Assembly (NCBI GenBank): GCA_904424815.1 | Contig: CAJGBI010000001.1 | Location: 1,321,671-1,385,670, forward strand | Direction: 5' to 3' | Origin: Puniceicoccaceae bacterium Marseille-Q1082 | Lineage (GTDB): Bacteria > Verrucomicrobiota > Verrucomicrobiia > Opitutales > Intestinicryptomonadaceae | Length of the DNA stretch: 64,000 nucleotides | In this document: piece by piece, positions 24,429 through 46,343 of the stretch | Layout: every line of letters starts with the position of its first letter | Numbering within the stretch: the first letter of the stretch is position 1 | Notes under the pieces: model-generated | Told to the model about the DNA's origin: nothing | Databases searched by the model: none | Seen by the model: the letters and a program-made list of their open reading frames with translations, nothing else | Made by a program: the position numbers and the translations under genes

Positions 24429-26597
24429 ATGGCAAAATCTCTCCTAACCCTCCCGATTCTCGCGCTTTGCGCGTGCTCGGCGCTAACCGCGCCCTCGACG
24501 ACCGAACTGCTAAAAGAAGACTTCGAAAATCCGGAATCCGTAAAACTCGCGGAAGCCGCAAAGTTTACGCCGGCTTTCACGAAAAACGCGGAGGGCAAAA
24601 ACGCCCTGTCCGGAAGCCGCTCGCTCGAAATCGACGCGATGTCCGCGGCCGGATGGACGCCCCTGCTTACCATCCCGATAAAATCCGGCGGCGGGTACAA
24701 ATTTTCGTTCAAATACAAAATTCTCGAAAAGTCCCCATCGGCGTCCGTCTATGCGGCAATGCGCTCGATAGATTCCGACGGCAAAAAAAACCGCCTTTCG
24801 CTGAAAACCCTGACGGAATCCAAAGGCGCAAAAAACGTGGTGATGGGCGCGGTGGTGCCTTCGTCCGCGAAGGGGGAAATCGAAATAATCTCCAACGGCG
24901 GCGCGAGGATAATATTGGACGACATCTCCGTCGAAAAGCTCGAAGTCGACCCCAGGGGAGCCTGGATGTACGATGACGACGCGTTCATAGCTATGCGCTA
25001 CAAGCCGACGAATTTCGATTTCAGCAGATTTGACGCGCCGTTTCTAAGCTATACAAAAGAGGAATTCTTTCCGTTCATAGACAAGTACGGCCAGTTCAAG
25101 CACAAGGATTGGACGGACAAGATAAAGTCCGACGGCGACTTCAAAAAGCGCGCCGAGGAGGAAAAGGCATTTTACGAAAAAATCGGCGACATTTCGAGGC
25201 GCGACAAATACCTCGGGCTCGTGAGGGACGGTAAAAACTACGGGGCGACCGGCAGGTTCCGCGCCGAGAAAATCGACGGCAGGTGGTGGCTTATAACGCC
25301 GGAGGGCAACCTCTTTTATTCGTTCGGCATAACGTGCGCTGGCAACCTCGACACTACGCCGCTCACCGACCGCGAATTCTATTTCGAGGACGTGTCGGAC
25401 AACCGTTTCCGCAAAAAGAACAACTACGGCGGGCTCCACTATTATAAGGGCAAAAAATTCGACGCCTACGGGTTTCTCGAGAGAAACCTCGTCGCCAAGT
25501 ACGGCGACGACTACCGCGCGTCCTACGGCGAAGTCGCCGACGAACGCATGAAGAAATGGGGGTTCACGACCTACGGCGCGTGGACGCAGCACTACATATT
25601 GAGGCGCGGCAACGTTCCGTACACGCTTATAACAAATTCCAAGGGGCGGAAAACCTACGACACAAACGTCAAAATGTACGCCTATTGGCACGACTTCCCC
25701 GACTTCTTCACCCCGGGATTCCGCGAAAAAACCATGGAGAGCGTGGCAAAGAACGCCGATCTGATAAGGTCTCCGATGTGCGTCGGAGTGTTCGTGGATA
25801 ACGAGCTCCCGTGGCAGGAGAAAACCGTGGTCACGATAAAGGCGCTGCTCGGCTGCCCCGCAAGCCAGCCGGGGAAAATCGAATTCCAAAAAGACCTCAA
25901 AAAGAAATACGGCGAAATCGAAAAGCTCAACGCCGCGTGGAAGGCGAGCTACAAGAGTTGGGAAGATTTCCTCGAAAAGAGGGACTTTGCGCCGAACACC
26001 GCGGCGGCGCGGGCCGACATGCTCGCGTTTGAAGAAAAGATGTACGAGCGCTATTTCAAAATCTGCCGCGAGGCCGTCAAAGCTGTATCCCCCGACGCCA
26101 TGTACATAGGCTGCCGCTTCGCGTGGCGCAACCCGCTCGTGGAGCGCGTGGCGTCGCGGTACTGCGACGCGCTGAGCTACAACGTGTACGCCGACAACGT
26201 GACGGACTTCTCCGCCGCCAAGGGCGCGGAAGACAAGCCCATCATAATAGGGGAATTCCACTTCGGCAACACCGACAAGGGCGTCTACGGAGGCGGGCTA
26301 AATGCGCGCGCCACCGCGGAAGAAAGGGCGCAGGCGTTCCGCGAATACGCCGTGAGCGCCTTCGAAAACCCGAAAGTTGTCGGCGCGCACTGGTTCCAGT
26401 GGTTCGACCTCTGCACGACCGGCCGCTTCAACGAGGCAAACTACGCAATCGGATTCGTGGACATCTGCGACACTCCGGACTACGTGATAGCAAAGGCAGC
26501 GCGAAAACTCTCAAAGAGAATGTACGACATCCGGCTGAGGGGCGGCAAAAGCACGCGCCAAAGCGCCGAAGCCGCCCGCAGCGTAATAGACGACTAA
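24429..26597 (+). CDS. Secreted clan GH-A glycoside hydrolase, GH50/GH42-like
   Basis: A 722-residue protein with a signal sequence containing a possible lipobox (LALCAC). Residues ~20-180 form a beta-sandwich (CBM-like). The catalytic part starts at RWWLITPEGNLFYSFGI, a segment shared with agarase/GH50-type proteins. Glu459 in FVDNELPW is the likely acid/base and Glu609 in IIGEFHFG the likely nucleophile, the usual NE...E pair of clan GH-A. A beta-galactosidase- or agarase-like specificity is possible. It follows the GH10 gene by 116 bases; together they suggest degradation of a plant or algal polysaccharide. The broken integrase starts immediately after its stop codon. Confidence 0.8.
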   Translation: MAKSLLTLPILALCACSALTAPSTTELLKEDFENPESVKLAEAAKFTPAFTKNAEGKNALSGSRSLEIDAMSAAGWTPLLTIPIKSGGGYKFSFKYKILEKSPSASVYAAMRSIDSDGKKNRLSLKTLTESKGAKNVVMGAVVPSSAKGEIEIISNGGARIILDDISVEKLEVDPRGAWMYDDDAFIAMRYKPTNFDFSRFDAPFLSYTKEEFFPFIDKYGQFKHKDWTDKIKSDGDFKKRAEEEKAFYEKIGDISRRDKYLGLVRDGKNYGATGRFRAEKIDGRWWLITPEGNLFYSFGITCAGNLDTTPLTDREFYFEDVSDNRFRKKNNYGGLHYYKGKKFDAYGFLERNLVAKYGDDYRASYGEVADERMKKWGFTTYGAWTQHYILRRGNVPYTLITNSKGRKTYDTNVKMYAYWHDFPDFFTPGFREKTMESVAKNADLIRSPMCVGVFVDNELPWQEKTVVTIKALLGCPASQPGKIEFQKDLKKKYGEIEKLNAAWKASYKSWEDFLEKRDFAPNTAAARADMLAFEEKMYERYFKICREAVKAVSPDAMYIGCRFAWRNPLVERVASRYCDALSYNVYADNVTDFSAAKGAEDKPIIIGEFHFGNTDKGVYGGGLNARATAEERAQAFREYAVSAFENPKVVGAHWFQWFDLCTTGRFNEANYAIGFVDICDTPDYVIAKAARKLSKRMYDIRLRGGKSTRQSAEAARSVIDD

Positions 26598-27182
26598 ACT
26601 CCGGCGCCCTTCGCGTTGCCACGCAAAAGATCCGGCGAGTCGAAAAATATTTTCGCCTCGCCTTTTTTTATCCCGTACATATTCACATAGCGGGTTCTCA
26701 AAAGCGACAAATCAGCATGCCCCATTTGCGACTGCAAGCGCGGAAGATTTTTATAACGCTTCATATAATAAGACGCGAAAGTATGCCTCAAAACGTCCTG
26801 AACCCAAGGGCTCTCCAAATTTGCGTCGCGGCGCAACGCCTTCCATTTTTTTCCCCAATTTTTGGGGCAAATTGAAGATTCCGGATTTTTTCTAAGGCCT
26901 TTCAGCCAAGATTTCAACGCCGGACATATGTCAATGTGGCGGATTCCTCCGGTCTTGCTATTGCGCGCCTTCACCGTAATCGTTCCCTCTTCAAGATCCA
27001 CGTCCCCCCCATGCAAGCCTCGTCGTTTCCCTCGGGCGCACTCCGGCCCAAAGCATAATTCCGAGAGCGGGGGCGCAGTCCAGGTGCGCGGGCGACAAAA
27101 TTGCGTTTGACATCAGTATTGGGAATACTATATCATTATCTAAACAATAATAAATATTATCTATATTTAAAATATAGCCCAT
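26594..27182 (-). pseudogene. Broken tyrosine recombinase/integrase
   Basis: Two minus-strand frames together give the catalytic domain of a phage-type integrase. The upstream piece (27182 to ~27000) contains ALGIMLWAGVRPRETTRL with the first catalytic Arg; the downstream piece (~27010-26594) contains the GDVDLEEGTITVK strand, the VLRHTFASYY block, GHADLSLL and the TRYVN tyrosine. They are joined by a frameshift in a run of seven G (plus-strand C7 at 27004-27010); one fewer G restores the frame. The DNA-binding N-terminal domain is missing and the preceding DNA is AT-rich. It marks the left edge of the AT-rich island. Sequencing error or programmed slippage cannot be excluded for the frameshift. 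Confidence 0.8.
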
Positions 27183-27389
27183 ATTAAGAATATAACAAAA
27201 AAAATGAACTTAAAATCATCGATTTACCCCAAAATAAATAGTTATTTTAAATCTGTAAATAAAATCGAGCGTTATCCAGGCGACAAAACCTATGTTGCTT
27301 TCGGGGAATGATGAAATCTTCCCGACAGGAAATTGTGAACGCGCCGCATCTTAAATTCAAATATCGGCTATTTTGTCCATAGCGCGTGG

Positions 27390-27420
27390 TTGACAATGGA
27401 ATTATGCCGCACGGCATAGT
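27390..27420 (+). promoter_or_regulatory. Promoter with embedded palindrome upstream of kinase 1
   Basis: TTGACA (27390-27395) is followed by CATAGT (27415-27420) with a long 19-base spacer. A perfect palindrome ATGCCG-CA-CGGCAT (27404-27417) overlaps the spacer and -10 box and could be an operator. Confidence 0.4.
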
Positions 27421-27470
27421 TTGCAAACAGCTATTAGTTTTCCGAAATCTTCCGTTATTTTCCGCTAAAA

Positions 27471-28784
27471 ATGTCCCGGGTAACGCAAAATCCGACAGAG
27501 CCTCCCCCCGTTTCATCAATGATTGATAATATTGAAATGGTAAGAGAAATAGGCCGCGGGGGGTTCGGGTGCGTCTTTTTAGTTAAAGATGAAGCCGGAA
27601 TATACTACGCCCTGAAAAAAATTCCGCACGACAAAAGCGAACACTACGGGAAAGAGCTTTCCGCATTAAAACTATACCATAAAATTAAGGATAAAATTCC
27701 AAATTTAATACCGATACTCGATATAAAAATAAACAATCTGGAAATATCATACATCATGCCGCTCGCCGACGGCGTCGACGAAACGGATCCCGCATTTCCG
27801 GAATGGCGCCCCAAAACCCTGACAAAATTTATCGCGCAAAAATGCGAAAACGGAGGAATATTCAGCGCCGGCGACGCTATTAACGTATTTTCGCCCATCT
27901 TTAAAGCCGCCGAAGCGTTAAATAAAGAGGGCATCATACATCGGGATATAAAGCCGGACAATATTTTGTTTTTAAACGGCGAACCTTTCCTTTCCGACAT
28001 AGGATTGATGAAAGAGGACGATCCAGGGGTATCTTCGGCGGGAACTCCGACGTATACCCCGCCGACCTGGTATACCGGGAATCCGGATATGTGGGGGCTC
28101 GCCGCAACTTTATACTTCTTTTTGACACAAAACCCTCCGGATACAATCGGCAGAGCCAAATACATATTCCCTAAAGCGAAAGATAAAATGTCCGCCGCGG
28201 ATATTGCCGCCCTGCGCCACTTTCACCGCGTGATATTGCGGGCCATGAGAGAAAACGCGACCGAAAGATTTATCGACATGCACGATTTTTTTATGGCGTT
28301 CTCAGATATTGAAGAACGCAATAAACAATCCGCAAAATTATTGGACGGCGCAATCGCGGAAAAATCCACTTCTATATTTTTGACAAGCGGGCGAATAGAC
28401 AGGAAAACATTTTCGGCAGCATATTGGTTCATCTATATAATAACCAATATATCCACCTCTCTGCTTGTCGATTTGGGCTCGACATCTACATATGCTTTTG
28501 TTGGAATATTTTTTATTTGGCCGATGGTCACGATATTGTCAAAACGCGCCCACGATGCGAATATCAGCGCCAAAACCGCCATTTGCATTCTTATAGCATC
28601 CAGAGCATTGGGCATCGCAAACGCCTATTTCTTTTACGACGTTGAAAATTTTGTAAAGCTAATCGCAATGCTCTGTATCGAATTATTCATCAATATCGCC
28701 ATTTTTGCGATATTTTTGTCCTTTAAACCCACAAACGGCATAAACAAATACGGCGTCTGCGCCCAAAAGCTCAGTTTTTTCTAA
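27471..28784 (+). CDS. Hanks-type Ser/Thr protein kinase fused to a DUF805 membrane domain
   Basis: A 437-residue protein. The kinase domain (~20-285) has the glycine loop GRGGFG (28-33), Lys49, the catalytic loop HRDIKPDN (157-164) and Asp176 in SDIGLM, so the usual DFG is DIG. The activation segment reads AGTPTYTPPTWY. Residues ~306-432 are a four-helix DUF805 domain (SGRIDRKTF, KRAHDANIS, INKYG), placing the kinase on the cytoplasmic face of the membrane. It is a clear paralogue of the kinase at 30147-32243 (shared PLADG, WRPKTL, PPTWY, PDMWG). The start could also be the ATG at 27519, which begins nearer the kinase fold. It is the first gene of the AT-rich island. Confidence 0.88.
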   Translation: MSRVTQNPTEPPPVSSMIDNIEMVREIGRGGFGCVFLVKDEAGIYYALKKIPHDKSEHYGKELSALKLYHKIKDKIPNLIPILDIKINNLEISYIMPLADGVDETDPAFPEWRPKTLTKFIAQKCENGGIFSAGDAINVFSPIFKAAEALNKEGIIHRDIKPDNILFLNGEPFLSDIGLMKEDDPGVSSAGTPTYTPPTWYTGNPDMWGLAATLYFFLTQNPPDTIGRAKYIFPKAKDKMSAADIAALRHFHRVILRAMRENATERFIDMHDFFMAFSDIEERNKQSAKLLDGAIAEKSTSIFLTSGRIDRKTFSAAYWFIYIITNISTSLLVDLGSTSTYAFVGIFFIWPMVTILSKRAHDANISAKTAICILIASRALGIANAYFFYDVENFVKLIAMLCIELFINIAIFAIFLSFKPTNGINKYGVCAQKLSFF

Positions 28785-28835
28785 AAATTTGCATTTCGCG
28801 CGAAAGATTGGAAAATTAACCGCGAAAAAATAAGT

Positions 28836-29495
28836 ATGAAGTGCCCAGACACACCTAAAAGCGTGATTTCGGAAATGCTGAACCAAAACAAGGGAACGGT
28901 TTGGCAAAAATCATGGAACATTTTTTTTGAGATATATTATTCCACCATGCTTTCAATGGCAAAAAATGTCTTCAAGAACATAGGCTGGCTGTCGGTGCCC
29001 AATGCGGACATGGAAGAAATCATATCCGAAAGCGTGATATCCATTGTGAACGCTTTTAAAAACGGGAAATATCAAAATGGGAAGTACCGCTTTCGGGGAT
29101 TTCTCAAACAAATAATTACCCGCAGGATTATCGACTTCATACGAAGGAAAAACAAAAAGCGTTTGGTGCCTGTGGAAATTCTGGACTTATATGAAAACGC
29201 GAAAGAATTCGACGCTTGCGAAGGCTCCAATCCTTTTGAGCGCCTTGAAGACGACGAAGCCGACGAATACAAAAAGAGCGTCGTAATGGACGCGTGGGAA
29301 AATATACGCCCGTCATTTTCGCCACAGACATGCCTTATTTTCGAGATGAGCCAACTTGAAGGCAAAAACGTCCCGGAGATATCTGAAATTTTGGGTGTCA
29401 CGCGCAATATAATAGACAGTTGCGTTCACCGCGTATTGAAAAAATTAAAATCGAAACTCGAAGAGGAAAATTATAGAAGGGAGTTGGCAAGATGA
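28836..29495 (+). CDS. ECF-type RNA polymerase sigma factor
   Basis: A 219-residue sigma70-family protein with region 2 (~25-115, ending RGFLKQIITRRIIDFIRR) and region 4 (~150-210, with the helix-turn-helix VPEISEILGVTRNIIDSCVHRVLKKLK). No region 3 is present, as in extracytoplasmic-function sigmas. It lies 51 bases after kinase 1 and overlaps the next small gene by 4 bases (ATGA). Inference: it directs expression of genes in the island, perhaps under kinase control, since kinase-linked ECF sigmas are known in Planctomycetes and relatives. No classical anti-sigma gene is adjacent. Confidence 0.88.
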   Translation: MKCPDTPKSVISEMLNQNKGTVWQKSWNIFFEIYYSTMLSMAKNVFKNIGWLSVPNADMEEIISESVISIVNAFKNGKYQNGKYRFRGFLKQIITRRIIDFIRRKNKKRLVPVEILDLYENAKEFDACEGSNPFERLEDDEADEYKKSVVMDAWENIRPSFSPQTCLIFEMSQLEGKNVPEISEILGVTRNIIDSCVHRVLKKLKSKLEEENYRRELAR

Positions 29496-29686
29496 ACTCC
29501 GGCAAAAATACAGACGGTATGGAAAACGAGGAAATTATCAGGTGCCTGAAAGACGCCTTTGATTCCATGGAGGAAAAACGCTCCGACATATTGAAACGCA
29601 AAATAAGGCAATCAATAGAGAACAAGCTGGCGCGGGAAAATCCTGAGAGATCCGGAGGAACCGCGGCGGAACGCCTGACAAAATAA
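29492..29686 (+). CDS. Small hypothetical protein coupled to the ECF sigma factor
   Basis: A 64-residue, highly charged, probably helical protein (EEIIRCLKDAFDSMEEKRSD). Its ATG overlaps the sigma-factor stop (ATGA), so it is likely translationally coupled. No membrane segment or known domain. It might modulate the sigma factor, but nothing in the sequence proves this. Confidence 0.55.
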   Translation: MNSGKNTDGMENEEIIRCLKDAFDSMEEKRSDILKRKIRQSIENKLARENPERSGGTAAERLTK

Positions 29687-29771
29687 ACCCGCAGGCTTTC
29701 GCAATTCTCCGCCGGAGCATCCCGCCCTGCCCTTCGACCTTCAAATAACGCCTATTATTATCCGAAAAAAT

Positions 29772-30035
29772 ATGCCACACCGCAAATTCTTCCGCCTTTG
29801 GGGGCCAACTAAATTATTGCTGCCGGCAATTTGCCTGTCGGCTGCACTCTGTTACGCGCAGCAAGCCGCGATTATAGACGGGCACACGCATATCGCCGTA
29901 ACCAAATATGTAAACGGAACGCAACAGACGATCTGGACGCACGATCCCAATATGTGCGGGAAATGCTCGCTTGAAAAATTGAAAGAAATCAACCGCAGCA
30001 TTATCAACCAAGGCAACGCCTTAAAAAGGCGCTAA
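29772..30035 (+). CDS. Small secreted CxxC protein
   Basis: An 87-residue protein with a signal peptide (KLLLPAICLSAALCYA, predicted cleavage near residue 30). The mature part of ~57 residues contains THIAVTKYV, a threonine-rich stretch and CGKC, with one further Cys only in the signal. I do not recognise a family. Its reading frame and position between the sigma-factor unit and the convergent kinase 2 suggest a real small gene. It could be a redox-active or metal-binding peptide, or an effector or substrate of the island system; this is inference. Confidence 0.55.
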   Translation: MPHRKFFRLWGPTKLLLPAICLSAALCYAQQAAIIDGHTHIAVTKYVNGTQQTIWTHDPNMCGKCSLEKLKEINRSIINQGNALKRR

Positions 30036-30146
30036 TGGGCCCTGGTAATAATAATCGTAATAACTATGTATATCCGGAAGCATATCGGGAACCCCCTCGT
30101 TTTTGAGAAATACTCTATAAATTCCTTTTCAAGAAATCTACATCCA

Positions 30147-32243
30147 TTACATTTTTATATATTCCAAGTAATCTATATTTAGGTACGGCGCCATTACCGC
30201 GCATGTAATCGGATCATTTTCGGCAATCCATTCCATTAACCGCGGGAATTTTAATAAAAACACAAACGCAGTGTGCCTTACCGCGTTATGTCTGATATCT
30301 TGAGGCGCGTGCATTGCATAATCCTCGGTCTTTAATATGGCATAGCGCACGAATTCTGAAGACTTTCCATACAGTTTCGGATCGGATTTCATGTAGTAGC
30401 ATGTCACCGCTGCAAATGCGCCGGCTATGGCGCCAGTGCTTTTATTTCCCCGAAAGCCACTCATATCAAACGAAGCAACATGCGAGAAAAAAAATGCCGA
30501 ATCATTGCAGGTTTGCAAGAAAGTATGACTCGCCATACAGTCTTTTATAAGCTCGTCGGCTTTTGCTTTTTCGCCTATATTTGAATAGTGATATATAGCC
30601 CTCAAAAACACGCCGGACAAAAAACGGGGGCATTTGCCAGTAAGGTCATACAGACGCATACCCCAATATATTGGCCTGTTCGACACCACGATATAATATG
30701 TCATAATCCTATGAAATTCATCGAATATTTTTGCAAACTCCGCAGAATTTTTGCCATCGTCAAATTTTGCATCGATCAAAAGATTATACAATCTCACTAT
30801 CTCGTACTGTTTGTCATCCCAATAATTTTTCCCAAGCACATCCCTTGCCTTCTGGACACCTTCGGGTATTTTTTTCCTTGGACGCAGAAATAGACCAAAA
30901 AACGCCTGATCGTTATATAAACGCTTCGAGCGATACTCATTCTCTATCTGTTTGTAACACTCTTCGTCATCGGCGTCCGGACGCAATCGATATTTAAACA
31001 ACGGCTCGTCAAAAGTTGTGCTCTCCTGCTCCCCCGGAAAATACATATCCTCTATCTGATTTTCTATCCCTTTGTCATAGGCGTCCGGACGCGAGACGCC
31101 TTTCGCGCCTTCCTTTATTTTCAAACACAATCCATTGTAAAATTTATCCAACCCTTCGTAATCATACTCGTAGGGCAAATAGCGCGGAGGGAGAATTTTA
31201 AGGGGATCGAATTTGTTCGGATTTTCGGGAAGCGGTTTTCCCGCTTTTTTATCCACCGCAGTTGCGTCCGCTCCGCCCAATGTTTCGTCAGGCGCGGGTT
31301 CGGCGTCGAAAAAATGAACCGCGCCGGCATAAGTCAATGCGGCCAAGAGCGCGAATGCGGCGGTCGACGCCCATAGATTTCTCCTGCGGGAATTTTCGCA
31401 GGGTTTTACGTCGGGAAATACCACGTCCTGTCCGTCTGCAATTTTTTTGATGTCGTCCGCTATGTCGGAAAACCTTATATACCGCTCCTTTGCCTCCTGG
31501 CTGGTGATTCGGAAAATGACATTGTGGAATTTCTCCCAAGCCACAATATCGCGCGTCGGCATTCCGTTTTTTCCCTGAGGAGGCCACATGTACGCCGTCC
31601 GGCCGAGACAATCCGGAGTGTTCGAAGTCAAAAACGCAAACAAGGTGGCGCCTACCCCCCACATGTCGGGCTTGCCGCGCGTCTTTAAATACCATGTAGG
31701 AGGCATATAGTCCGGAGTTCCCGACGCGGACAGGCTTTTGCCGTCATACGTCATCAATCCGATATCCGCAAGCGTAGGGGCGCCGTTGAAAAACAATACA
31801 TTGGCCGGCTTTATGTCGCGGTGGACAATGTTTCTTTCATTAAGTTCTCCGACAGCGCGTATGATGGGAATGAAAATCGAGGCGACATCTTCGCGGGTAA
31901 ACCACTTTTTCCGGTTGATTTGCCCGCTTATCACGTATTCAAGCGTCTTTGGACGCCAAGATTTGTCGAGGGGCGAAACTTCCGGCTCCACACCGTCGGA
32001 TAAGGGCATCGAGTAATATAAGACTCCTCCTTCTTGAAAAGACTCGAATATGGGAACGATATTCCGAATCGGCTTTTCCAACAGGGATTCTCCGAATGTC
32101 TTTATGGCGCCCGCCTCCCGATTGGCGATTGCGCCGCGAATTTCTTTGAGGGCGCAAAACTTACCGTCTTTCTCCGCCAGATATACCTTTCCGAATCCCC
32201 CGTTTCCTATTTCTCTCAATATTTGGTAATCCCTAACCCGCAT
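30147..32243 (-). CDS. Transmembrane Hanks-type Ser/Thr kinase with extracytoplasmic helical domain
   Basis: A 698-residue protein. The kinase domain (~5-265) has the glycine loop GNGGFG (13-18), catalytic loop HRDIKPAN (141-148) and Asp160 in ADIGLM (DIG in place of DFG). The activation segment is SGTPDYMPPTWY. A single transmembrane helix at ~290-311 leads to ~385 extracytoplasmic residues that look mostly helical, without a recognised domain; this would be the sensor. It is paralogous to kinase 1 (shared MPLSDGV, WRPKTL, PDMWG). It is transcribed divergently from the peptide gene at 32366, with 122 bases between, so the two may share regulation. Confidence 0.88.
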   Translation of the reverse strand: MRVRDYQILREIGNGGFGKVYLAEKDGKFCALKEIRGAIANREAGAIKTFGESLLEKPIRNIVPIFESFQEGGVLYYSMPLSDGVEPEVSPLDKSWRPKTLEYVISGQINRKKWFTREDVASIFIPIIRAVGELNERNIVHRDIKPANVLFFNGAPTLADIGLMTYDGKSLSASGTPDYMPPTWYLKTRGKPDMWGVGATLFAFLTSNTPDCLGRTAYMWPPQGKNGMPTRDIVAWEKFHNVIFRITSQEAKERYIRFSDIADDIKKIADGQDVVFPDVKPCENSRRRNLWASTAAFALLAALTYAGAVHFFDAEPAPDETLGGADATAVDKKAGKPLPENPNKFDPLKILPPRYLPYEYDYEGLDKFYNGLCLKIKEGAKGVSRPDAYDKGIENQIEDMYFPGEQESTTFDEPLFKYRLRPDADDEECYKQIENEYRSKRLYNDQAFFGLFLRPRKKIPEGVQKARDVLGKNYWDDKQYEIVRLYNLLIDAKFDDGKNSAEFAKIFDEFHRIMTYYIVVSNRPIYWGMRLYDLTGKCPRFLSGVFLRAIYHYSNIGEKAKADELIKDCMASHTFLQTCNDSAFFFSHVASFDMSGFRGNKSTGAIAGAFAAVTCYYMKSDPKLYGKSSEFVRYAILKTEDYAMHAPQDIRHNAVRHTAFVFLLKFPRLMEWIAENDPITCAVMAPYLNIDYLEYIKM

Positions 32244-32365
32244 ACATATTTTTAAAATTAAAAAAAAATTGCATCGTCAAGAAAGATTTCCGCCGCAGTT
32301 GCGAAATAATAGAAAAGGGAGCGAAAAATCTCTCTCTTATAGAACTATCAACTAAGGAAAAAATT

Positions 32366-32593
32366 ATGATTATCACTACAATAGTTACGGCAGCCGCGGC
32401 GTCGCTTGCCTCCCCCTCGGATGTCGCGAAAAATATCGACTCCCTTACGGGAGAGCAAGGGCAACGCTCCATTACGACGACATGCGGAGCGGAACTCGAA
32501 GACAAAACCAAAACCGGAGTTAGCGTAAACTATACGTATTCGTACGTAACCGGCAGAAACCAGGTAATGGACGATTCCAGAACTTGGGATTGA
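32366..32593 (+). CDS. Candidate RiPP (graspetide-like) precursor peptide
   Basis: A 75-residue peptide directly upstream of the ATP-grasp ligase. The start is fixed by AAGGA (32354-32358), 7 bases before the ATG. Residues 1-30 would be the leader. The C-terminal half is rich in hydroxyl and acidic residues needed for ester or amide cross-links: T37-T38-T39...E43-L44-E45-D46 resembles the TTxxxxEE core of plesiocin-type graspetides, and the tail has D69-D70-S71...T73-W74-D75. The single Cys40 is not part of a CxxC. It has no close family recognised by eye. The precursor assignment rests on position, size, composition and the ligase type. Confidence 0.62.
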   Translation: MIITTIVTAAAASLASPSDVAKNIDSLTGEQGQRSITTTCGAELEDKTKTGVSVNYTYSYVTGRNQVMDDSRTWD

Positions 32594-32604
32594 TCTCAGC
32601 ATTC

Positions 32605-32632
32605 CGCGGTGCGCGCGGCCGCGCGCACCGCG
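32605..32632. promoter_or_regulatory. Perfect 28-bp GC palindrome between peptide and ligase
   Basis: CGCGGTGCGCGCGG (32605-32618) is exactly complementary to 32619-32632. It starts 11 bases after the peptide stop and ends 30 bases before the ligase start. It is much more GC-rich than its surroundings. It could be a partial terminator or mRNA-stabilising hairpin that yields more peptide than enzyme, a common arrangement in RiPP operons. Confidence 0.6.
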
Positions 32633-32662
32633 AACCAGCATTTTAATTTAAACGACGCCCAT

Positions 32663-33568
32663 ATGCTCCTAATTCCCACATGTTCCGAAGACGTCACCAC
32701 CGACATGCTATTGCCGCTTCTCGGAGAAATTGACGTTTTCAGGTTCAACATCGACAAATGGAACGAATACGCATGGGAATTTTCAAATGCCGGAATATTC
32801 GCGCAATCCCCCGACGGGAAGATTCTTGCCGACAATAAATTAAAATGCGTATACATGCGAAAACCCATATTTTTCGACGCAATCGACGTGCCCGCGAACG
32901 GATGCCTTGAAAATTGGTGCCGCGAAGAGGTGGTTCGGCTCTGGCAGGATTTATTTTACGATATGGCCGCGCGTTCGCGCGCAGCGCTGGTGTTTCCTGC
33001 GAAATCCAAATGGTACAAACACACGCAAATGGAGCTCGCGTCAAAATATTTCAAAGTTCCCGAATGGAAAATTATTCGCGGATTTCTTCCGGAAGCCCTG
33101 AAAAACGGCAAATGGGTGGCAAAATCCCTCACGCAGACCCAGATAGGAGAGGGGAAGATATTTCTCGTCAGAGAAATAGACGTCGATAAAATCGACCCGT
33201 ACTATCCGTGGTTTCTCCAACGAAAAATCGACGCGCAGTACGACCTCACCGCCGTATTTGTCGAGGGAGAAATATTCGCGTTTGAAACTTCGCGCTCAGA
33301 GTTAAAAGGCGAGGACGTTCGCATAAACACAAAATTGCAATGGGATAGAACAGAGCTTTCGGAATCCGAGCTGCTGGCGATTAAGTCGTTCATGAAGGAT
33401 ACCGGCTTTGCGTTTGGAAGATTCGATTTTCTCCGCAAGGACGGAGAGTTGATATTCCTGGAAATGAACCCCAACGGAATGTGGGCGTGGTTGGATATGG
33501 ACTACAAAAACGGAATATTTGAAAGCGTCGCAAACGCGATAAAGAGAAAATACAATTCAATCAACTAA
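32663..33568 (+). CDS. ATP-grasp RiPP ligase (MvdD/PsnB-like peptide maturase)
   Basis: A 301-residue ATP-grasp enzyme. The N-terminal pre-ATP-grasp domain starts LLIPTCSEDVTTDMLLPLL and FRFNIDKW, the pattern of graspetide ligases, and FPAKSKWYKHTQMELA (111-126) matches the K..Q..A helix of the family. Lys154 (WVAKS) is the expected ATP lysine, FLQRKIDAQYDLTAVFV is the conserved strand, and Asp255 plus Glu267/Asn269 (FLEMNPNG) should bind Mg2+. Such enzymes phosphorylate side-chain carboxylates of a precursor and form ester or amide links with Ser/Thr/Lys. The ATG at 32663 gives the standard N-terminus; an earlier frame start lies in the palindrome. The Sel1 gene follows after 19 bases. Confidence 0.85.
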   Translation: MLLIPTCSEDVTTDMLLPLLGEIDVFRFNIDKWNEYAWEFSNAGIFAQSPDGKILADNKLKCVYMRKPIFFDAIDVPANGCLENWCREEVVRLWQDLFYDMAARSRAALVFPAKSKWYKHTQMELASKYFKVPEWKIIRGFLPEALKNGKWVAKSLTQTQIGEGKIFLVREIDVDKIDPYYPWFLQRKIDAQYDLTAVFVEGEIFAFETSRSELKGEDVRINTKLQWDRTELSESELLAIKSFMKDTGFAFGRFDFLRKDGELIFLEMNPNGMWAWLDMDYKNGIFESVANAIKRKYNSIN

Positions 33569-33587
33569 TTTAACCACAAATCAACAT

Positions 33588-35324
33588 ATGATGCGCACTA
33601 ATATAAAACAAAATGTTTCCAAATATATGGCGTTATTCGCAAAGGCCCATATTGCATTATTTATTTTGCTACTTTATTCTCAGTCCATTGGCGCGGAATA
33701 CCAGTTCAAAGACAAACCCAATAAAATGGGGCAATTCGATATATCGTGCGAGGGATTGCTCTTCCCCGAAAATAGCGCATTTAATTCGGCTATTATACAA
33801 ATATCCAAATTATATGAATCGTCGGACGGCGCCATGGTAAATCCTAAAGAGGAATTGAGAAAAAAATTCCAAGAACACGGAATAAACGGATATAAGGGAT
33901 ATTTGAATAAAATAAAAATTCTCATAGAAGAAGCCAAAATGGCGCAAAAAGAAGGGGAAACTTTAAGCAGAGAGAGAGATTATACCATTAAGGACATTGG
34001 CATCAATGCGGGAAGAAAGTTTGTGAGTCAGGAATCTGCTCGAAGAAAAGGAGCAAAACTTATAAGCGATAGTAAATCTTATATGGAAGAAGCCCAAGAA
34101 ATGACGGACATATTAAATAAATATGTGTCATCTCGAAAAATTGGGAGACTTACCAGAGAATGGAAATCTGCAAAGGGAGAAAGCGTATACGGAACCGTGT
34201 TGGAGTTGAAAGACGGGAAAATAACGTTTGTAAACGACAAAACTAAATTCTTCACATTTGAAGAATCCATTTTGGACAAAAACGATATAGCATTTTTACA
34301 CGATAACATAATTCTCTTAGATGTCCTGGATTTTCCGGACCTATCGTCGCAGTCTGAAAATGCGGCAGAAATATTGGAGCGAACCCAGAAGGCATATGAA
34401 AAGGGGAATGCATACGCTGCATATGTTTTGGCGTTTGCATACAAAAACGGATATGGAGTTGAAACAAATTGGGATACCGCGCTAAAATATATGGAGAAAG
34501 CCGCGCAAAATGGCATAGCGGAAGCCCAAAAAAGCATGGGCGACTACAATTACTCCAATTGGGAAAATGCCAATATCCTATTAAGCCAAAATAAAGATGC
34601 AACCAAAGCGGCCAAGGCATTGGAGTGGTATGAAAAAAGCGCAAAGAACGGGAATCGCCCCGCTATGATTATGTGCGCCAAAATATTGTTTCCCGAAGAC
34701 ATAAACAAGGCGCACGAATGGGCGATAAGAGCGTATAATTTTAAATATGAAGATGAAAACGGATGTGAAATGCTCGCGGTATCGCTATTGGGCGACATTG
34801 AAATGCGCAGAGGCAATATCCCTCAAGCTGTAAAATGGTATGAAATGGCCGCAAAACGCCGCAATTTATACGCTATTTTAAAACTCGCCGACTATTATTG
34901 CAGCAAAGGAAACTACCATAAATTCTTAGCCTATTCATCTATTGCCGATAAAATGGGCAACCTTAACGGTAATCTCAATCTTTTTGAGGCGATGTATTGG
35001 GGATGGGGAATCAGAAGAAACTTATCTGAAATTATTAGAATCAACTATTCTCAAAAAACCAATATATTCTCGGATAAGGCGCAAATGTCCGGATTCACTG
35101 ATAAAGTCAAATTTTACGCTTCGATTCTTTCCGGATTTAATTATAAAGAAATTAAATACATAGCGACCGAGAAAGAGCGCAAGACCGCAATTAGGGTATT
35201 GCAATCCGTTCGTGGGAAGTACGCGCCTATTGCTATAAAAGCAGCTGATATGATGCAAAATGGTGTAGTTAATGGAGAAGAGTTTGAAAGTTATTCGGCA
35301 TATGTTGCAGGCTTGATGTTCTGA
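33588..35324 (+). CDS. Secreted SHD1-like and Sel1-repeat protein
   Basis: A 578-residue protein with an N-terminal signal or anchor (ALFILLLYSQSIGA, cleavage near 36). Residues ~60-180 are helical. Residues ~188-240 (REWKSAKGESVYGTVLELKDGKITF, abridged) resemble the SHD1 module found in many Planctomycetes/Verrucomicrobiota secreted proteins. Residues ~260-470 hold Sel1-like helical repeats (A.YVLAFAYKNGYGVE, AAQNGIAEAQ), used for protein contacts. It starts 19 bases after the ATP-grasp ligase, in the same unit. It may bind or present a periplasmic partner; the role is unknown. The start lies in a CATATG context without a Shine-Dalgarno site. Confidence 0.75.
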   Translation: MMRTNIKQNVSKYMALFAKAHIALFILLLYSQSIGAEYQFKDKPNKMGQFDISCEGLLFPENSAFNSAIIQISKLYESSDGAMVNPKEELRKKFQEHGINGYKGYLNKIKILIEEAKMAQKEGETLSRERDYTIKDIGINAGRKFVSQESARRKGAKLISDSKSYMEEAQEMTDILNKYVSSRKIGRLTREWKSAKGESVYGTVLELKDGKITFVNDKTKFFTFEESILDKNDIAFLHDNIILLDVLDFPDLSSQSENAAEILERTQKAYEKGNAYAAYVLAFAYKNGYGVETNWDTALKYMEKAAQNGIAEAQKSMGDYNYSNWENANILLSQNKDATKAAKALEWYEKSAKNGNRPAMIMCAKILFPEDINKAHEWAIRAYNFKYEDENGCEMLAVSLLGDIEMRRGNIPQAVKWYEMAAKRRNLYAILKLADYYCSKGNYHKFLAYSSIADKMGNLNGNLNLFEAMYWGWGIRRNLSEIIRINYSQKTNIFSDKAQMSGFTDKVKFYASILSGFNYKEIKYIATEKERKTAIRVLQSVRGKYAPIAIKAADMMQNGVVNGEEFESYSAYVAGLMF

Positions 35325-35396
35325 TATAAAAATAAATTCACAGAATATACACAAAAACAAATATCTATGTAAAACATAATTAGGCTACAAAATCAT

Positions 35397-36398
35397 ATGA
35401 ACGACTATTACGCCAAAGGCCTTGAAGCTTATAATATCAAAGATTATAAGGCCGCTTTCGGATATTGGAGTTGTGGTTCTAATATGAAGGATGCATGCTG
35501 CGATTATGGATTAGCGATGCTCTATGAACATGGTTTATTCGTAGATAAATCATTTCGGAAATCTCAAGAATATTATTTCAAATCCTATAGAAGAGGGAAT
35601 AGCATTGCCATAAAAAATATTAAAATAACAGGTTTCATAATTATCATCTTTCAAACGCTCTTTTATAGCTTAGTCAAAGTCATAGCATCCGCATGCATCT
35701 TGCTCGCGGCGGGATTTGTGGCATACATCTGTTATGATTGGGCATTTTCTTATCCAGCAAACAAAAAAGAAAAGGTTTTGCCTGCACGCGAACAAGAAGC
35801 AGAAGACAAAAAGGGAAAACTTTTGCTTACTCATGAACAAGAAATGGTCGAATGGGCGACTGCAAATGGTGCGAACGCGCAAATGCAACTTGGGCTGGCA
35901 TATTTTAAAGGCGAAATGGGAATTCCACAAAATCTGGAAAAAGGATGCGTATGGCTATATTATGCCGCAATTAACGGAAACAATGATGCAAGGGAACTTT
36001 TAAAGAGTTTTATTATTTCAAAAAAAATCGACGAACTCGAACGCAATGCAATCTCTAACGGTAATGCGGAAGATTTAGTGACGCTTTCGGCATTGTATTA
36101 CATAGGTTCTAAAAATATACAGCGCGATGAAAGAAAGGCTGAATACTTTTTATCGGAAGCCGCAAAATATGACGAGAATGCCGCGAAAATATTGTTATTA
36201 TTTAAAGGAATAAAGCTTTTGCTTATATTTTCGGATCAGGAAGCACGATCTAAAGTTGAGGAACTAAAACAACAAATAATTGCATGCTTACAAAATGAAC
36301 TTTCGAAATTCGACCTTACTGACAAAGAAATAAAAAATGAACTCATAAATATGGGTTGCGATTTTAACATTATTTACAGTAACACTAACCATAGATAA
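35397..36398 (+). CDS. Membrane protein with Sel1-like repeats
   Basis: A 333-residue protein with Sel1-like repeats before (1-75) and after (~150-290) one or two transmembrane helices at ~80-120 (FIIIIFQTLFYSLVKV). Repeat signatures are LGLAYFKGEMG and AAINGNNDAREL. The second repeat block would be on the far side of the membrane or, if there are two helices, in the cytoplasm. No catalytic motif. It follows the SHD1/Sel1 gene by 72 bases and has the same CATATG start context. Probably an adaptor of the island system; this is inferred from repeats and position only. Confidence 0.72.
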   Translation: MNDYYAKGLEAYNIKDYKAAFGYWSCGSNMKDACCDYGLAMLYEHGLFVDKSFRKSQEYYFKSYRRGNSIAIKNIKITGFIIIIFQTLFYSLVKVIASACILLAAGFVAYICYDWAFSYPANKKEKVLPAREQEAEDKKGKLLLTHEQEMVEWATANGANAQMQLGLAYFKGEMGIPQNLEKGCVWLYYAAINGNNDARELLKSFIISKKIDELERNAISNGNAEDLVTLSALYYIGSKNIQRDERKAEYFLSEAAKYDENAAKILLLFKGIKLLLIFSDQEARSKVEELKQQIIACLQNELSKFDLTDKEIKNELINMGCDFNIIYSNTNHR

Positions 36399-36421
36399 CA
36401 ATAAATTCTCAATTCAACCAT

Positions 36422-37609
36422 ATGAAAGCCGTAAATATAAACAACAAACAGAAAAATAAATTCATTATTCTCATCGCGTTATTTATAATTCAATTTGTAT
36501 TTATTTATGCAGTAGATTTCTTTTGTTGGAATAGAATAGCCTCATATGAATTAGTAAAAACGGAGATTTGCTCAAAATGGGGAAACAACCAGGCCATAAA
36601 CGACGTATATATCGCCATAGCCAATACCGACGGAAAAATTGAAAAAAAATACTTTCCGAAAATGCTAAATGCAAATTCAGAGTTAATTCCGGAAGTGCGG
36701 CATAGGGGAATATATAATATTGCCGTGTTTACGGCAAATGTGTCGGCAAGCGCAACGTTTGAACCTGTCAATGGGGAAAAACGAAAATTAATAATAGAAA
36801 TATCTGACGCTAATGGAACAGCCTCGTTATCAGGCAGAATGAATAACCGCGAGCTTAAATTTTCATATGATGCAGAACACAAATATTTTGTATCCGACAT
36901 TCCCGCCGAAATCGGCGCTGGCGATATGAACGCCAATTTTGATATTGTGCTTCGCGGAAGCGGCAGTTTTTCATTTGGAGCTTCAGGAGAAAAAAATTCA
37001 TTTAAGATGCACTCTAAATGGGGGAACCCTAAATTTATAGGGTACCGTCTGCCTGACACATATAAAATTGATGAAAAAAATTTTACCGCTGAATGGAATA
37101 TAGATAATATCAATAAAATTTCCGGTCTATCAGAAAATGTAGGAACCGAAATTCTCGTCGCATTTGATTCATATGCAAAAGTGGATAGGGCTATTGGTTA
37201 CTCATTTTTATTTTTGATGATTTTCATGGCGACATTAATCACAGGAGAATGGGTCTCCAAAAATAAACTGCATATTTTACAATATGCTGTTGCATCTTGC
37301 ACTCCCGTGATATTTTATCTTTTATTGCTTTCAACATCCGAATTTTTGGGATTTGAAGCAGGCTTCATCTTATGCGCGACAATCGCCACATCAATGATTT
37401 CAATTTACACGCTTATTGCATTCAGGAGCGGCAAGTCAATGCTCATCATATTATTATCTAATATACTATCATATATTTTAATGTACGTTATTCTGAATAT
37501 GCAAATATATGCGCTAATTGCCGGCAGCCTGGTAATCACCGCAGGCCTTGCAATAGCAATGTGCGCAACTGCCAAAATTAACAGAAATACACCGGAGGCA
37601 ACCGCATAG
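36422..37609 (+). CDS. creD: CreD-family inner membrane protein
   Basis: A 395-residue membrane protein. One N-terminal helix (~15-33) is followed by a ~200-residue periplasmic part containing WGNPKFIGYRLPDTYKID and FTAEWNI, the CreD signature, then KVDRAIGYSFLFL and a bundle of about five helices to the C-terminus. CreD proteins belong to the cell-envelope response (CreBC regulon) and affect beta-lactam or colicin tolerance in enterobacteria and relatives. This copy has a shorter periplasmic region than usual. No creBC two-component genes are near; here it accompanies kinases and a candidate RiPP, so an envelope-protective or immunity role is an attractive inference. Confidence 0.82.
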   Translation: MKAVNINNKQKNKFIILIALFIIQFVFIYAVDFFCWNRIASYELVKTEICSKWGNNQAINDVYIAIANTDGKIEKKYFPKMLNANSELIPEVRHRGIYNIAVFTANVSASATFEPVNGEKRKLIIEISDANGTASLSGRMNNRELKFSYDAEHKYFVSDIPAEIGAGDMNANFDIVLRGSGSFSFGASGEKNSFKMHSKWGNPKFIGYRLPDTYKIDEKNFTAEWNIDNINKISGLSENVGTEILVAFDSYAKVDRAIGYSFLFLMIFMATLITGEWVSKNKLHILQYAVASCTPVIFYLLLLSTSEFLGFEAGFILCATIATSMISIYTLIAFRSGKSMLIILLSNILSYILMYVILNMQIYALIAGSLVITAGLAIAMCATAKINRNTPEATA

Positions 37610-37641
37610 TTAAATTATGCATTTGCACAAAATATAATAAA

Positions 37642-38709
37642 ATGAAATATATATTAGTTTTTACTTTTGCATTGGGAATTTTGCCAAATATCCTTGCGGC
37701 GGGCGAAAATGATATAGGCGCTCTTGCCAAAGAAATTTCAAATAACGGCGTCGCTTTATTTGAAAGGGAAACCCATTCGCCCGACGATTACAAAAAAGCT
37801 CTTTGGCTTTTCGAGAAATCTGACGAAACGATAAAAAAGTCCTCCGGAGACAAGACGCTGCTCTACGAGAATGCCTACTATATGGGAATGATCTATTACA
37901 CCGGAGGATATGGCGTCGATAAGGATGAAGAAAAGGCAAAAAAACTGCTCAAATTTAGCGCGGACAACGACAACGACAATGCCAAATCTTTCCTGAAATC
38001 AATAGACGATAAAATCGATTATTATAAAACCTGTTCTTTGAAAGAAGTTCTTTCGTACGTCAATCCCATAAAGAATATCTCAGAAACGGGATACACATTT
38101 CTCCCTCCGGAGTCCGCGGATCTCGCATATGCCAAGGAAAACAATAAGGAATTTTCATACGATAAATCCCTAAAAGTACAACCCGATAAAAAAAGGTATC
38201 ATCTCGTAAATATAATGGCAATATGGGAACTCGCGGGAACCACTCCCGATCCGTTGGAACCCATCATAGCGGTTGACCCTATGCAGGGAAATAGGTTTTT
38301 TTGCAATGGCAAAGTAGATATTTTTGCAGACGGAGCGCGTGTGGAAGGACGCGCAGAGAATGACCCTGAATACAACTATGAGGATTTTTTCAATTATAGA
38401 TACATGGGCGCGCTTCCAAACGGCGTGCACGTTCTAAGCTGTTATGAAGGTATGGGCGGAACGGGCAGAATGTCGTATATAATGTTCCTCGTTTTTGAAA
38501 AAATCAAAATGTTGGACTATTCCGATGTGACGGAAAAAATCATTTTGCGCACTTTGGGGAAAATACATATAGATCCTCCTAAGTTTTATAGTTCCCATCT
38601 GAAATGCGAATTAAAAAACGGCGCATTCTATATAGAATATCTTTCCGACGACGGGGGAACCAATGGATACACGCAACTCTATAAAAATAGAATAGAGATT
38701 AAATTTTAG
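37642..38709 (+). CDS. Secreted Sel1-like protein of unknown function
   Basis: A 355-residue protein with a signal peptide (MKYILVFTFALGILPNILA). Residues ~40-120 contain Sel1/TPR-like helices (YYMGMIYYTGGYGVDKDEEKA). The rest has beta-rich segments (NRFFCNGKVDIFADGARVEG, LPNGVHVLSCYEGMGGTGR) without a recognised family. It is 32 bases after creD and probably the last gene of the run starting with the peptide gene. Base composition matches the island. Confidence 0.7.
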   Translation: MKYILVFTFALGILPNILAAGENDIGALAKEISNNGVALFERETHSPDDYKKALWLFEKSDETIKKSSGDKTLLYENAYYMGMIYYTGGYGVDKDEEKAKKLLKFSADNDNDNAKSFLKSIDDKIDYYKTCSLKEVLSYVNPIKNISETGYTFLPPESADLAYAKENNKEFSYDKSLKVQPDKKRYHLVNIMAIWELAGTTPDPLEPIIAVDPMQGNRFFCNGKVDIFADGARVEGRAENDPEYNYEDFFNYRYMGALPNGVHVLSCYEGMGGTGRMSYIMFLVFEKIKMLDYSDVTEKIILRTLGKIHIDPPKFYSSHLKCELKNGAFYIEYLSDDGGTNGYTQLYKNRIEIKF

Positions 38710-39091
38710 CATATAATCCGTATGGGTCGCCAAACCGAACGACAGAATTATACGAATATACATTTGTATTTATAAATAACAATTGATTCAGAATTCGAAT
38801 CGCTGTCATCTATTGATTTTAAATAAAGATTTCCCGCGGAATACCTTTATTCACATGGACTTGCAGGCTTTTTCGTTTTTGCCGTCCATTGCCGTGATTG
38901 GCGAAAAGCGCACCGAAAAATCGGTAATTTTCTTGAAAAATTACCCACTATTGTCCATCATGAAAATAACGTCGTCCGGAAATCCGCGCGCCCCCCTTTG
39001 AGGTAAACTACATTGCTGAGGTCGTCAAGGCACCAAAAACGACGGAATCGCTTGTAAATTGTGCGGAGTGTAAAATCAAAGGAAAACAAAT
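38710..39091. other. Intergenic, nothing recognised
   Basis: About 380 bases of AT-rich DNA. A 72-codon plus-strand frame (38783-39001) has no recognisable protein features and is not called. No terminator or RNA gene was identified. Confidence 0.5.
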
Positions 39092-45717: not shown

Positions 45718-46343
45718 AAATTTAGGAGTCCGCCGGCGCGCGGTTCGCGTCCGGAATAATAAAAAAGCCGCTCCGAATCCGCCGGACCGGCAAAATGGGA
45801 ACCCCCGGAATTGCCGTCTTGCCGGATTGGTTTCGCAGCCTCCAAAAGAAGAGGTGGGTGCTTCCGCCGCGGCTTCTGTCTTCCGCAATCGAAGGCGGCC
45901 TGACATCCGCCGCAACCGGGTCGAGCTCCCGTATTATTGTCATTAAGGCGGGGAACCGGTAGGGCAGTCTCGAACATTCCAGAGGTTCTGCAAGTTTTAT
46001 CCCACGCGCGCGCGCATTTTGCAACAAAATTTTTAAAGCGCATTTCAAATCCGCCCCAATTTGACCGCGGCGGAAGCGGAAAGGGGGCGCCACCCCGCCC
46101 CCCAATATTCCGAAATTCCGCGGGGATTTCCGCCCGAGCGTCAAGCTATTAAAAAAAAAGTTCCGCACAGGGCGCCCCCCGCCCGCCTATGCGAAATCCT
46201 CAAAAGGCAAAACCCGTAAAATTTACCGATTTAAAGATGGAAAACTGCGGAGAAAAAAAACGCAAGCCGGACTGTCGGGGAAAGCGCGGGAAACCCCGAA
46301 TTTTGGCTTTGCAATCGCGCCCGCGCCCGCGCAGAATGGGCGC
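45718..46343. other. Intergenic, no supported gene
   Basis: About 625 bases. A 148-codon minus-strand frame (45722-46168) lacks recognisable domains and a plausible start, and is not called. No RNA gene or terminator was recognised. Confidence 0.5.

Follow-up and report, generated by a model that had tools for sequence, protein, structure and literature searches.

The core of the graspetide plesiocin reads TTxxxxEE. In fuscimiditide, according to the accessible text of PMC12291112, a Thr3–Asp22 link lies outside a Thr7–Asp18 link. The available part of the survey PMC8939145 gives Phhx(1,2)h as a leader motif of about half of graspetide precursors and names a histidine-kinase-like ATPase among graspetide neighbours. 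Neither Verrucomicrobi nor a sigma factor is mentioned in the accessible text of the graspetide surveys PMC8939145 and PMC13097080, and the word 'kinase' is absent from the accessible main text of the latter; an entry for the ligases described here in the supplementary sequence sets of these surveys is possible. A literature search, mostly outside subscription journals, returned no graspetide described for Verrucomicrobiota and none with Akkermansia. Here we analyse a window of 64,000 nt, the whole stretch of DNA under study, from the Verrucomicrobiota genome Puniceicoccaceae bacterium Marseille-Q1082. Judged by its sequence, the locus in this window is a genuine graspetide-type pair, a member of a Verrucomicrobiota family that has a core and a leader of its own, and it looks like an undescribed branch of a known natural-product class. 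Our preferred reading, to which we assign a probability of about 0.7, is a single-ligase graspetide pathway under a kinase–sigma switch, with the case for the switch coming mainly from sister genomes.

A small peptide gene beside a maturase-type ligase

32366..32593, + strand: precursor peptide gene (P0002), 75 aa; ranks first against the f39 core profile, without a Pfam or NCBIfam match
32605..32632, + strand: 28-nt perfect inverted repeat (hairpin) between the peptide and ligase genes
32663..33568, + strand: graspetide-type ATP-grasp ligase (P0001), 301 aa from the ATG, with profile matches

The initial annotation described a small peptide ORF with a ribosome-binding site directly before an ATP-grasp gene, a description that holds: an AAGGA run stands ahead of the peptide ATG, and by inspection none is obvious ahead of the ligase start. 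The ligase features it listed, FPAKSKWYKHTQ, K154, D255 and FLEMNPNG, are all present when numbered from the ATG, and K154, D218, R220, R253, D255, E267 and N269 are invariant across 38 aligned ligases. A GTG start at 32609 was considered and rejected because the ATG at 32663 lines up with the starts of homologues.

Profile searches of the ligase returned peptide maturases. At E ≤ 1 the NCBIfam matches were TIGR04187 (2e-21, full length), TIGR04185 (9e-20) and TIGR04184 (6e-8), followed by the weaker TIGR04192 (7e-4) and NF005315 (0.012); the ligase scores below every curated NCBIfam cut-off (76.5 versus 350 bits for TIGR04187, 71 versus 425 for TIGR04185), and Pfam gave nothing at 0.1. All 11 ligase relatives match TIGR04187, TIGR04185, TIGR04184 and TIGR04192, with no other NCBIfam model at 1e-3. 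Searching the PDB with a profile of 11 ligase relatives (threshold 1e-3) recovered AMdnB (7m4s, 5e-28), 5ig8 (5e-23), CdnC (7mgv, 9e-19), 5ig9 (3e-16) and 9bou (7e-15), each spanning nearly the whole ligase profile, and no sixth chain. We take 5ig8 and 5ig9 to be MdnB and MdnC. A RimK-like or other non-peptide ATP-grasp identity was rejected, as no such PDB or NCBIfam match appeared at 1e-3; one plasmid relative carries the name rimK_1, by annotation only.

Ligase homologues occur in 40 Verrucomicrobiota genomes, distributed among families f39 (20), f10 (13), f1 (3) and f22, f27, f77 and f106 (one each). Matches were found in 3 of 19 genomes of the window's family, 13 of 387 in a draw from the phylum, 20 of 114 in f39, 13 of 195 in an f10 draw and 7 of 384 in a class draw, the window's own genome being counted where it belonged. 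A relative with 65% identity is present in the metagenome-assembled genome Verrucomicrobiaceae bacterium SIG74. Two of the 40 ligases (L032 and L040) are cut by contig ends, and at all 38 complete loci a small peptide gene lies just upstream of the ligase gene, separated by 51–185 nt in the 37 gaps measured; together these loci encode 37 different precursor peptides. Clustering of the ligase with non-peptide ATP-grasp families, or homologous loci lacking an adjacent peptide gene, had been named in advance as what would speak against a graspetide-like precursor–ligase pair. In the PDB and NCBIfam, every match at E ≤ 1e-3 is to a peptide maturase, and the neighbouring peptide gene is conserved, so the proposed pair withstands both sequence-based challenges.

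Full-length ligase relatives on plasmids are 23–24% identical, and in a tree with eight plasmid-record ligases all 38 family ligases lie to one side of a 100/100 branch; deep branching order is unsure, owing to a midpoint root and several long branches that meet. Such low identity, together with the deep branching of the enzyme family, could favour an ATP-grasp enzyme with a different action on the peptide, such as appending an amino acid or coupling it to a different molecule. We consider this very improbable, as at 1e-3 only side-chain peptide cyclases or RiPP maturases are matched in the PDB and NCBIfam and the conserved peptide residues form a nucleophile–acid set as in graspetides.

Among viral contigs, 20 candidate stretches yielded three ligase relatives, with 35, 23 and 25% identity. 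At L092:448–909, on the IMG/VR contig that carries the 35% identical ligase, a 153-aa ORF upstream of that ligase ends in the precursor-like YDW...DTDSDDDRSYD and has an N terminus that resembles a phage portal protein by eye.

The gap between the two genes is structured throughout the family. In the window it folds at −28.6 kcal/mol (z −3.5), and a strong hairpin is predicted in 37 of 37 gaps folded, with z from −1.6 to −7.2 (60 shuffles each; weakest in L024 and L042). The hairpin sequences are unlike between families, and a T run follows the hairpin in several f10 members. The element may act as a partial terminator or a stabiliser, either of which would give more peptide than enzyme.

The C-terminal core and the leader

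32411..32437, + strand: leader motif S16-P17-S18-D19-V20-A21-K22-N23-I24; compare SPVDVAENI (L002) and TPNDIATDI (f39)
32534..32590, + strand: predicted core, with T57 and S59 as putative nucleophiles and D69 and D70 as putative acids

The peptide residues singled out by the initial annotation, T37–T39, E43-L44-E45-D46 and the SRTWD end, can all be read in the translation. Its proposal that T37–T39 and E43–D46 form the core did not survive comparison with homologues: T37–T39 are not conserved, and the conserved part is a C-terminal [TS]x[STC]...DD. E43, E45 and D46 were likewise rejected as core residues, as they belong to an acidic pre-core stretch that is absent from the short f39 peptides; such stretches (ELEDKTKTG, KLEEETKMG, SDEDMKTG) recur in f1 and f10 and are missing in f39.

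Reading of the aligned precursors defines the shared C-terminal segment as [T/S]-x-[S/T/C]-x(4-11)-D-D. In the window it takes the form TYS-YVTGRNQVM-DD, and elsewhere it appears as TYT-FERL-DD in L007, which is among the shortest precursors at 33 aa, as TYT-FPGSPSQRM-DD in L033 and as SFC-PVPFGNGTQTV-DD in L035. The DD pair is present in 35 of the 37 different precursors, the exceptions being L016, which has DTD, and L021, which stops early. By eye, every one of the 35 DD-bearing peptides has the motif, its loop being 4 or 8–11 residues long, and Cys occupies position i+2 in ten (L004, L005, L006, L008, L009, L012, L014, L028, L035 and L037); by script it is found in 33 of the 35, with loops of 4–13 and Cys at i+2 in eight. 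The two counts differ in loops and i+2 residues because the script took the first match before DD and the eye took the match nearest to DD. Positions i and i+2 are both able to carry a nucleophile in 35 of 35 DD-bearing peptides. As a separate observation, the early-stopped precursor (L021/L091) ends TYCSG, ahead of any DD, despite adjoining ligase, exporter, kinase and sigma genes.

Profile analysis recovers the same segment independently of the window's family. We built a core profile from the last 32 aa of 18 different f39-type peptides and ran it against 834 ORFs from 18 other loci, 18 of which are true precursors. The window peptide, whose own family had no part in the profile, ranks first of the 834 ORFs at E 7.5e-8; the top ten ORFs are all true precursors, 16 of the 18 are listed, L015 and L016 are missed, and the best decoy has an E value of 3.3. 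Pfam and NCBIfam gave no model at cut-off for the precursor peptides tried.

The conserved [T/S]-x-[S/T/C]...DD core predicts two nested esters with a mass change of −36 Da, which in the window would link T57 and S59 to D69 and D70. On this scheme the ligase, with ATP, would activate the side chains of D69–D70 and join them to T57 and S59, and the product would be a hairpin holding two nested omega-ester rings. An alternative is that only one ester forms, or that the connectivity differs, with the invariant T/S at i joined to one Asp and i+2 playing a structural part. A structural role of i+2 would account for the tolerance of Cys at that position, and extra T/S and D/E residues nearby could react too. 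We judge this rather unlikely: every DD-bearing peptide keeps residues capable of acting as nucleophiles at both i and i+2, and the strictness of the DD pair among the precursors, taken with this, fits two links.

The initial annotation saw no leader motif of known groups, which is correct for the window peptide; the family nevertheless has a motif of its own, P-x-[DE]-[IV]-A, found in f1 and f39 (SPSDVA, SPVDVA, TPNDIA). Peptides of f10, f22, f27 and f106 instead carry Y-[ND]-W (YSW in L041). The published motif Phhx(1,2)h is, by reading, absent from the window (SPSDV) and from f39 (TPNDI), and the f10 sequence TPFVAA could fit it. The ligase probably recognises its precursor through the leader, by way of the P-x-D-V-A stretch.

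Kinase and sigma genes, export and promoter-like elements

26594..27016, − strand: short tyrosine-recombinase (integrase) ORF, a fragment (PF00589 1.6e-9, profile positions 47–167 of 172) at the island edge
27000..39000, no strand: low-GC island with the locus (1-kb bins of 35–52% GC versus 53–63% in the flanks at 18–27 and 39–46 kb)
27471..28784, + strand: Hanks Ser/Thr kinase 1 (P0004), 437 aa, including a DUF805 membrane domain (Pkinase 2.2e-22, DUF805 2.6e-6)
28836..29495, + strand: ECF sigma factor (P0003), 219 aa (PF04542, PF08281 and PF07638 above cut-off)
29492..29686, + strand: 64-aa protein whose gene overlaps the 3′ end of sigma, no Pfam match
30147..32243, − strand: Hanks Ser/Thr kinase 2 (P0005), 698 aa, with the peptide gene running divergently (Pkinase 1.1e-21)
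33588..35324, + strand: Sel1-repeat protein, 578 aa, 19 nt past the ligase gene (Sel1 4e-10)
35397..36398, + strand: Sel1-repeat protein, 333 aa (Sel1 2.7e-12)
36422..37609, + strand: CreD-like inner-membrane protein, 395 aa (CreD 1.5e-63)
37642..38709, + strand: protein of 355 aa that matches Sel1 weakly (1.5e-6; 29 bits against a cut-off of 30.7)

The window's genome contains two kinase matches, both inside this locus, and at E ≤ 0.01 the sigma protein's own match is the only one in that genome. Genome G017 has one kinase match, at its locus, G007 has five, read as four genes with one at the locus, and 2 of 11 ligase-free members of the genus have any. The chance that two genes would fall randomly within 5.2 kb of the ligase is about 1.5e-5, a figure reckoned after the fact. 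Other ligase-bearing genomes hold 5–35 kinase matches, and the kinase neighbourhood is therefore weaker evidence there. An 87-aa ORF (window 29772–30035) that separates the sigma module from kinase 2 has a signal-like hydrophobic start and the sequence CGKCS, with no Pfam match.

Gene clustering of 21 neighbourhoods, comprising 20 loci from the 40 genomes and the window, found a Hanks kinase at 15, an ECF sigma at 11 and an ABC transporter at 11; a search for sigma relatives added four sigma genes at these loci (G017, G347, G482 and G450). In f1, f39, f77 and f22, every evaluable locus (15 of 15) has kinase and sigma genes with the pair, some up to 9 kb off; five f10/f106 loci and the 3-kb L059 are set aside from this count. 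At the five f10/f106 loci clustering found neither gene (0 of 5), so the switch is dispensable for the pair. Among 114 f39 genomes, a close sigma relative (E ≤ 1e-30) and a ligase each occur in 20, with 17 in common (Fisher 1.6e-14, a value inflated by kinship among the genomes). Sigma and ligase lie on one contig in 16 of these 17, and the aligned stretches overlap by 5 or 8 nt in ten; three genomes have the sigma relative alone (G221, G478, G494) and three the ligase alone (G297, G447, G464).

Sister genomes also contain a promoter-like element. The sequence TGTCAGATT-N13-CGTAT, or a close form, lies upstream of f39 and f77 peptide genes. As a pattern with N12-16 it occurs at 42 sites in 12 of 20 chosen genomes, and the reversed pattern at none. 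Eleven of these genomes bear a ligase and together have 40 sites, of which 30 are no more than 10 kb from the ligase, versus 0.23 of 40 expected; after removal of the 11 peptide sites that defined the pattern, the count is 19 of 29. At 7 of 11 loci, and in L091, the ABC exporter has the element ahead of it, as do an M16 peptidase in L060 and L089 and a Sel1 protein in L090; some f39 sites precede ORFs without a clear kind, one is internal to a long kinase-like ORF (L085), and G404 has two sites though it has no ligase match. The pattern was not found in the window's genome, G007, G017, G088, G341, G271 (where the peptide has CGTAA), G405 or G409. Upstream regions in the window's genus gave no convincing motif on inspection, and several f10 peptides have TTGACT...TACATT-like upstream sequences by eye. 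In L060 and L089, two f39 genomes, the M16 (insulinase-type) peptidases that follow ECF-like sites are possible leader peptidases.

A further hairpin occurs in 19 f39/f77 5′ leaders (L006–L031), upstream of the peptide gene, and shows two-sided changes: pair one is C-G in 17 and U-A in 2, and pair two is C-G in 10, U-G in 6 and U-A in 2, with one mismatch. In most f39/f77 leaders the hairpin is followed by a TTGGTTAACCAA palindrome. By sequence, the f39 hairpin and TTGGTTAACCAA together form a candidate RNA element or operator. Rfam gave no match at gathering on five f39 loci, L090 and L091 among them. A recurring CCCGGCTGAGAGAGCCCGGG-like transcript element was also seen behind several ECF-like sites, before Sel1 or unclassified proteins (L086, L087, L088, L090 and L091). 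In the window the sole Rfam match is a 6S RNA at 45798–45988 (− strand, 67.9 bits).

Kinases and sigma could instead be unrelated cargo of an island or variable region, with no control over a real graspetide pair. Here the locus sits on an island (no such clear drop in GC is seen at the other loci), no promoter element was found in the window's genus, the f10 and f106 loci do without the kinase–sigma module, and the kinase–sigma–small protein module also exists ligase-free in the window's family. Set against these points are the constant presence of kinase and sigma at evaluable f1, f39, f77 and f22 loci, the f39 element that precedes peptide and exporter genes alike, and the shared occurrence of f39 sigma and ligase, overstated in its p-value by the relatedness of the genomes; on balance we hold the cargo explanation to be unlikely. 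Ligase-free kinase–ECF sigma modules were seen at L063, L065–L068, L070 and L072, several of them followed by a conserved 57–72-aa protein like that at 29492–29686. Under the preferred kinase–sigma switch, the neighbouring ECF sigma would set expression of these genes, and the Ser/Thr kinase would probably control the sigma by phosphorylating it.

Once the rings had formed, the leader would be cut off and the peptide exported. The route may differ with the precursor. Where precursors lack a hydrophobic N terminus, clustering placed an ABC exporter at 11 of 13 loci, or 12 when L049 is counted, with L045 lacking one. Hydrophobic precursors have an ABC exporter at 0 of 8 loci (f1 3, f10 4, f106 1), and the hydrophobic N terminus may replace the exporter. 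In the one exporter checked, an ABC membrane domain is joined by an ATPase domain, and a peptidase domain is lacking. A more speculative scheme, and in our estimation distinctly improbable, is a signalling or conflict system in which the kinase senses the exported ester-ringed peptide and turns on the sigma, raising production of peptide, exporter and Sel1 or M16 peptidase proteins, and in which the ligase of members with Cys at the second nucleophile position would form a side-chain thioester. We know of no side-chain thioester in any graspetide.

Comparison with known systems

If the preferred reading is correct, a phylum for which our literature search returned no described graspetide contains a family open to testing, equipped with a leader, core and control genes of its own. 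Should the sigma drive the peptide promoter, it would offer a handle for activating silent clusters and would link natural-product control to signalling by Hanks kinases and ECF sigma factors. Precursors as short as 33 aa, with the TYTFERLDD core, would be convenient ligase substrates, and the Cys variants raise the question of whether these ligases are able to form thioesters. The suggestion that this may be a new graspetide class, beyond the published groups 1–43 and the 174 families of the survey PMC8939145, is plausible.

The locus resembles the microviridin-type systems (AMdnB 7m4s, 5ig8, 5ig9, CdnC 7mgv; TIGR04184, TIGR04185) in whole-length ligase homology and in a precursor gene just upstream, and departs from them in having a single ligase rather than an MvdC/MvdD pair (seen in L077), no PFFARFL leader and scores far below the cut-offs. 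With the Streptomyces-type TgmA/TgmB (TIGR04187) it shares the best NCBIfam model (2e-21) and an arrangement in which a single peptide gene is immediately followed by a single ligase gene, whereas the ligases lie across the 100/100 branch at a full-length identity of about 24%. Like plesiocin and, in the accessible description, fuscimiditide, the predicted product has an N-terminal hydroxyl pair, a C-terminal acid pair and nested links; unlike them it has the spacing [TS]x[STC]...DD, a single core with a loop of 4 or 8–11 residues, and no methyltransferase cluster among conserved neighbours.

For the putative switch, a comparison is offered by the kinase-activated ECF43 sigma factors, in which the acidic DxxD residues of region 2.2 are replaced by uncharged ones. 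By eye, the f39 sigma factors keep acidic region-2 residues (DADDIVQ or DADDVLQ) and the window has ADMEEIISE; assignment to ECF43 was rejected because the acidic residues of region 2.2 are retained. In the accessible account of the ECF43 pairs PknS–EcfK and PknT–EcfP (PMC13147305), a Hanks kinase gene adjoins an ECF sigma gene, as it does here, but their neighbour is a type VI secretion system, whereas here it is a peptide locus.
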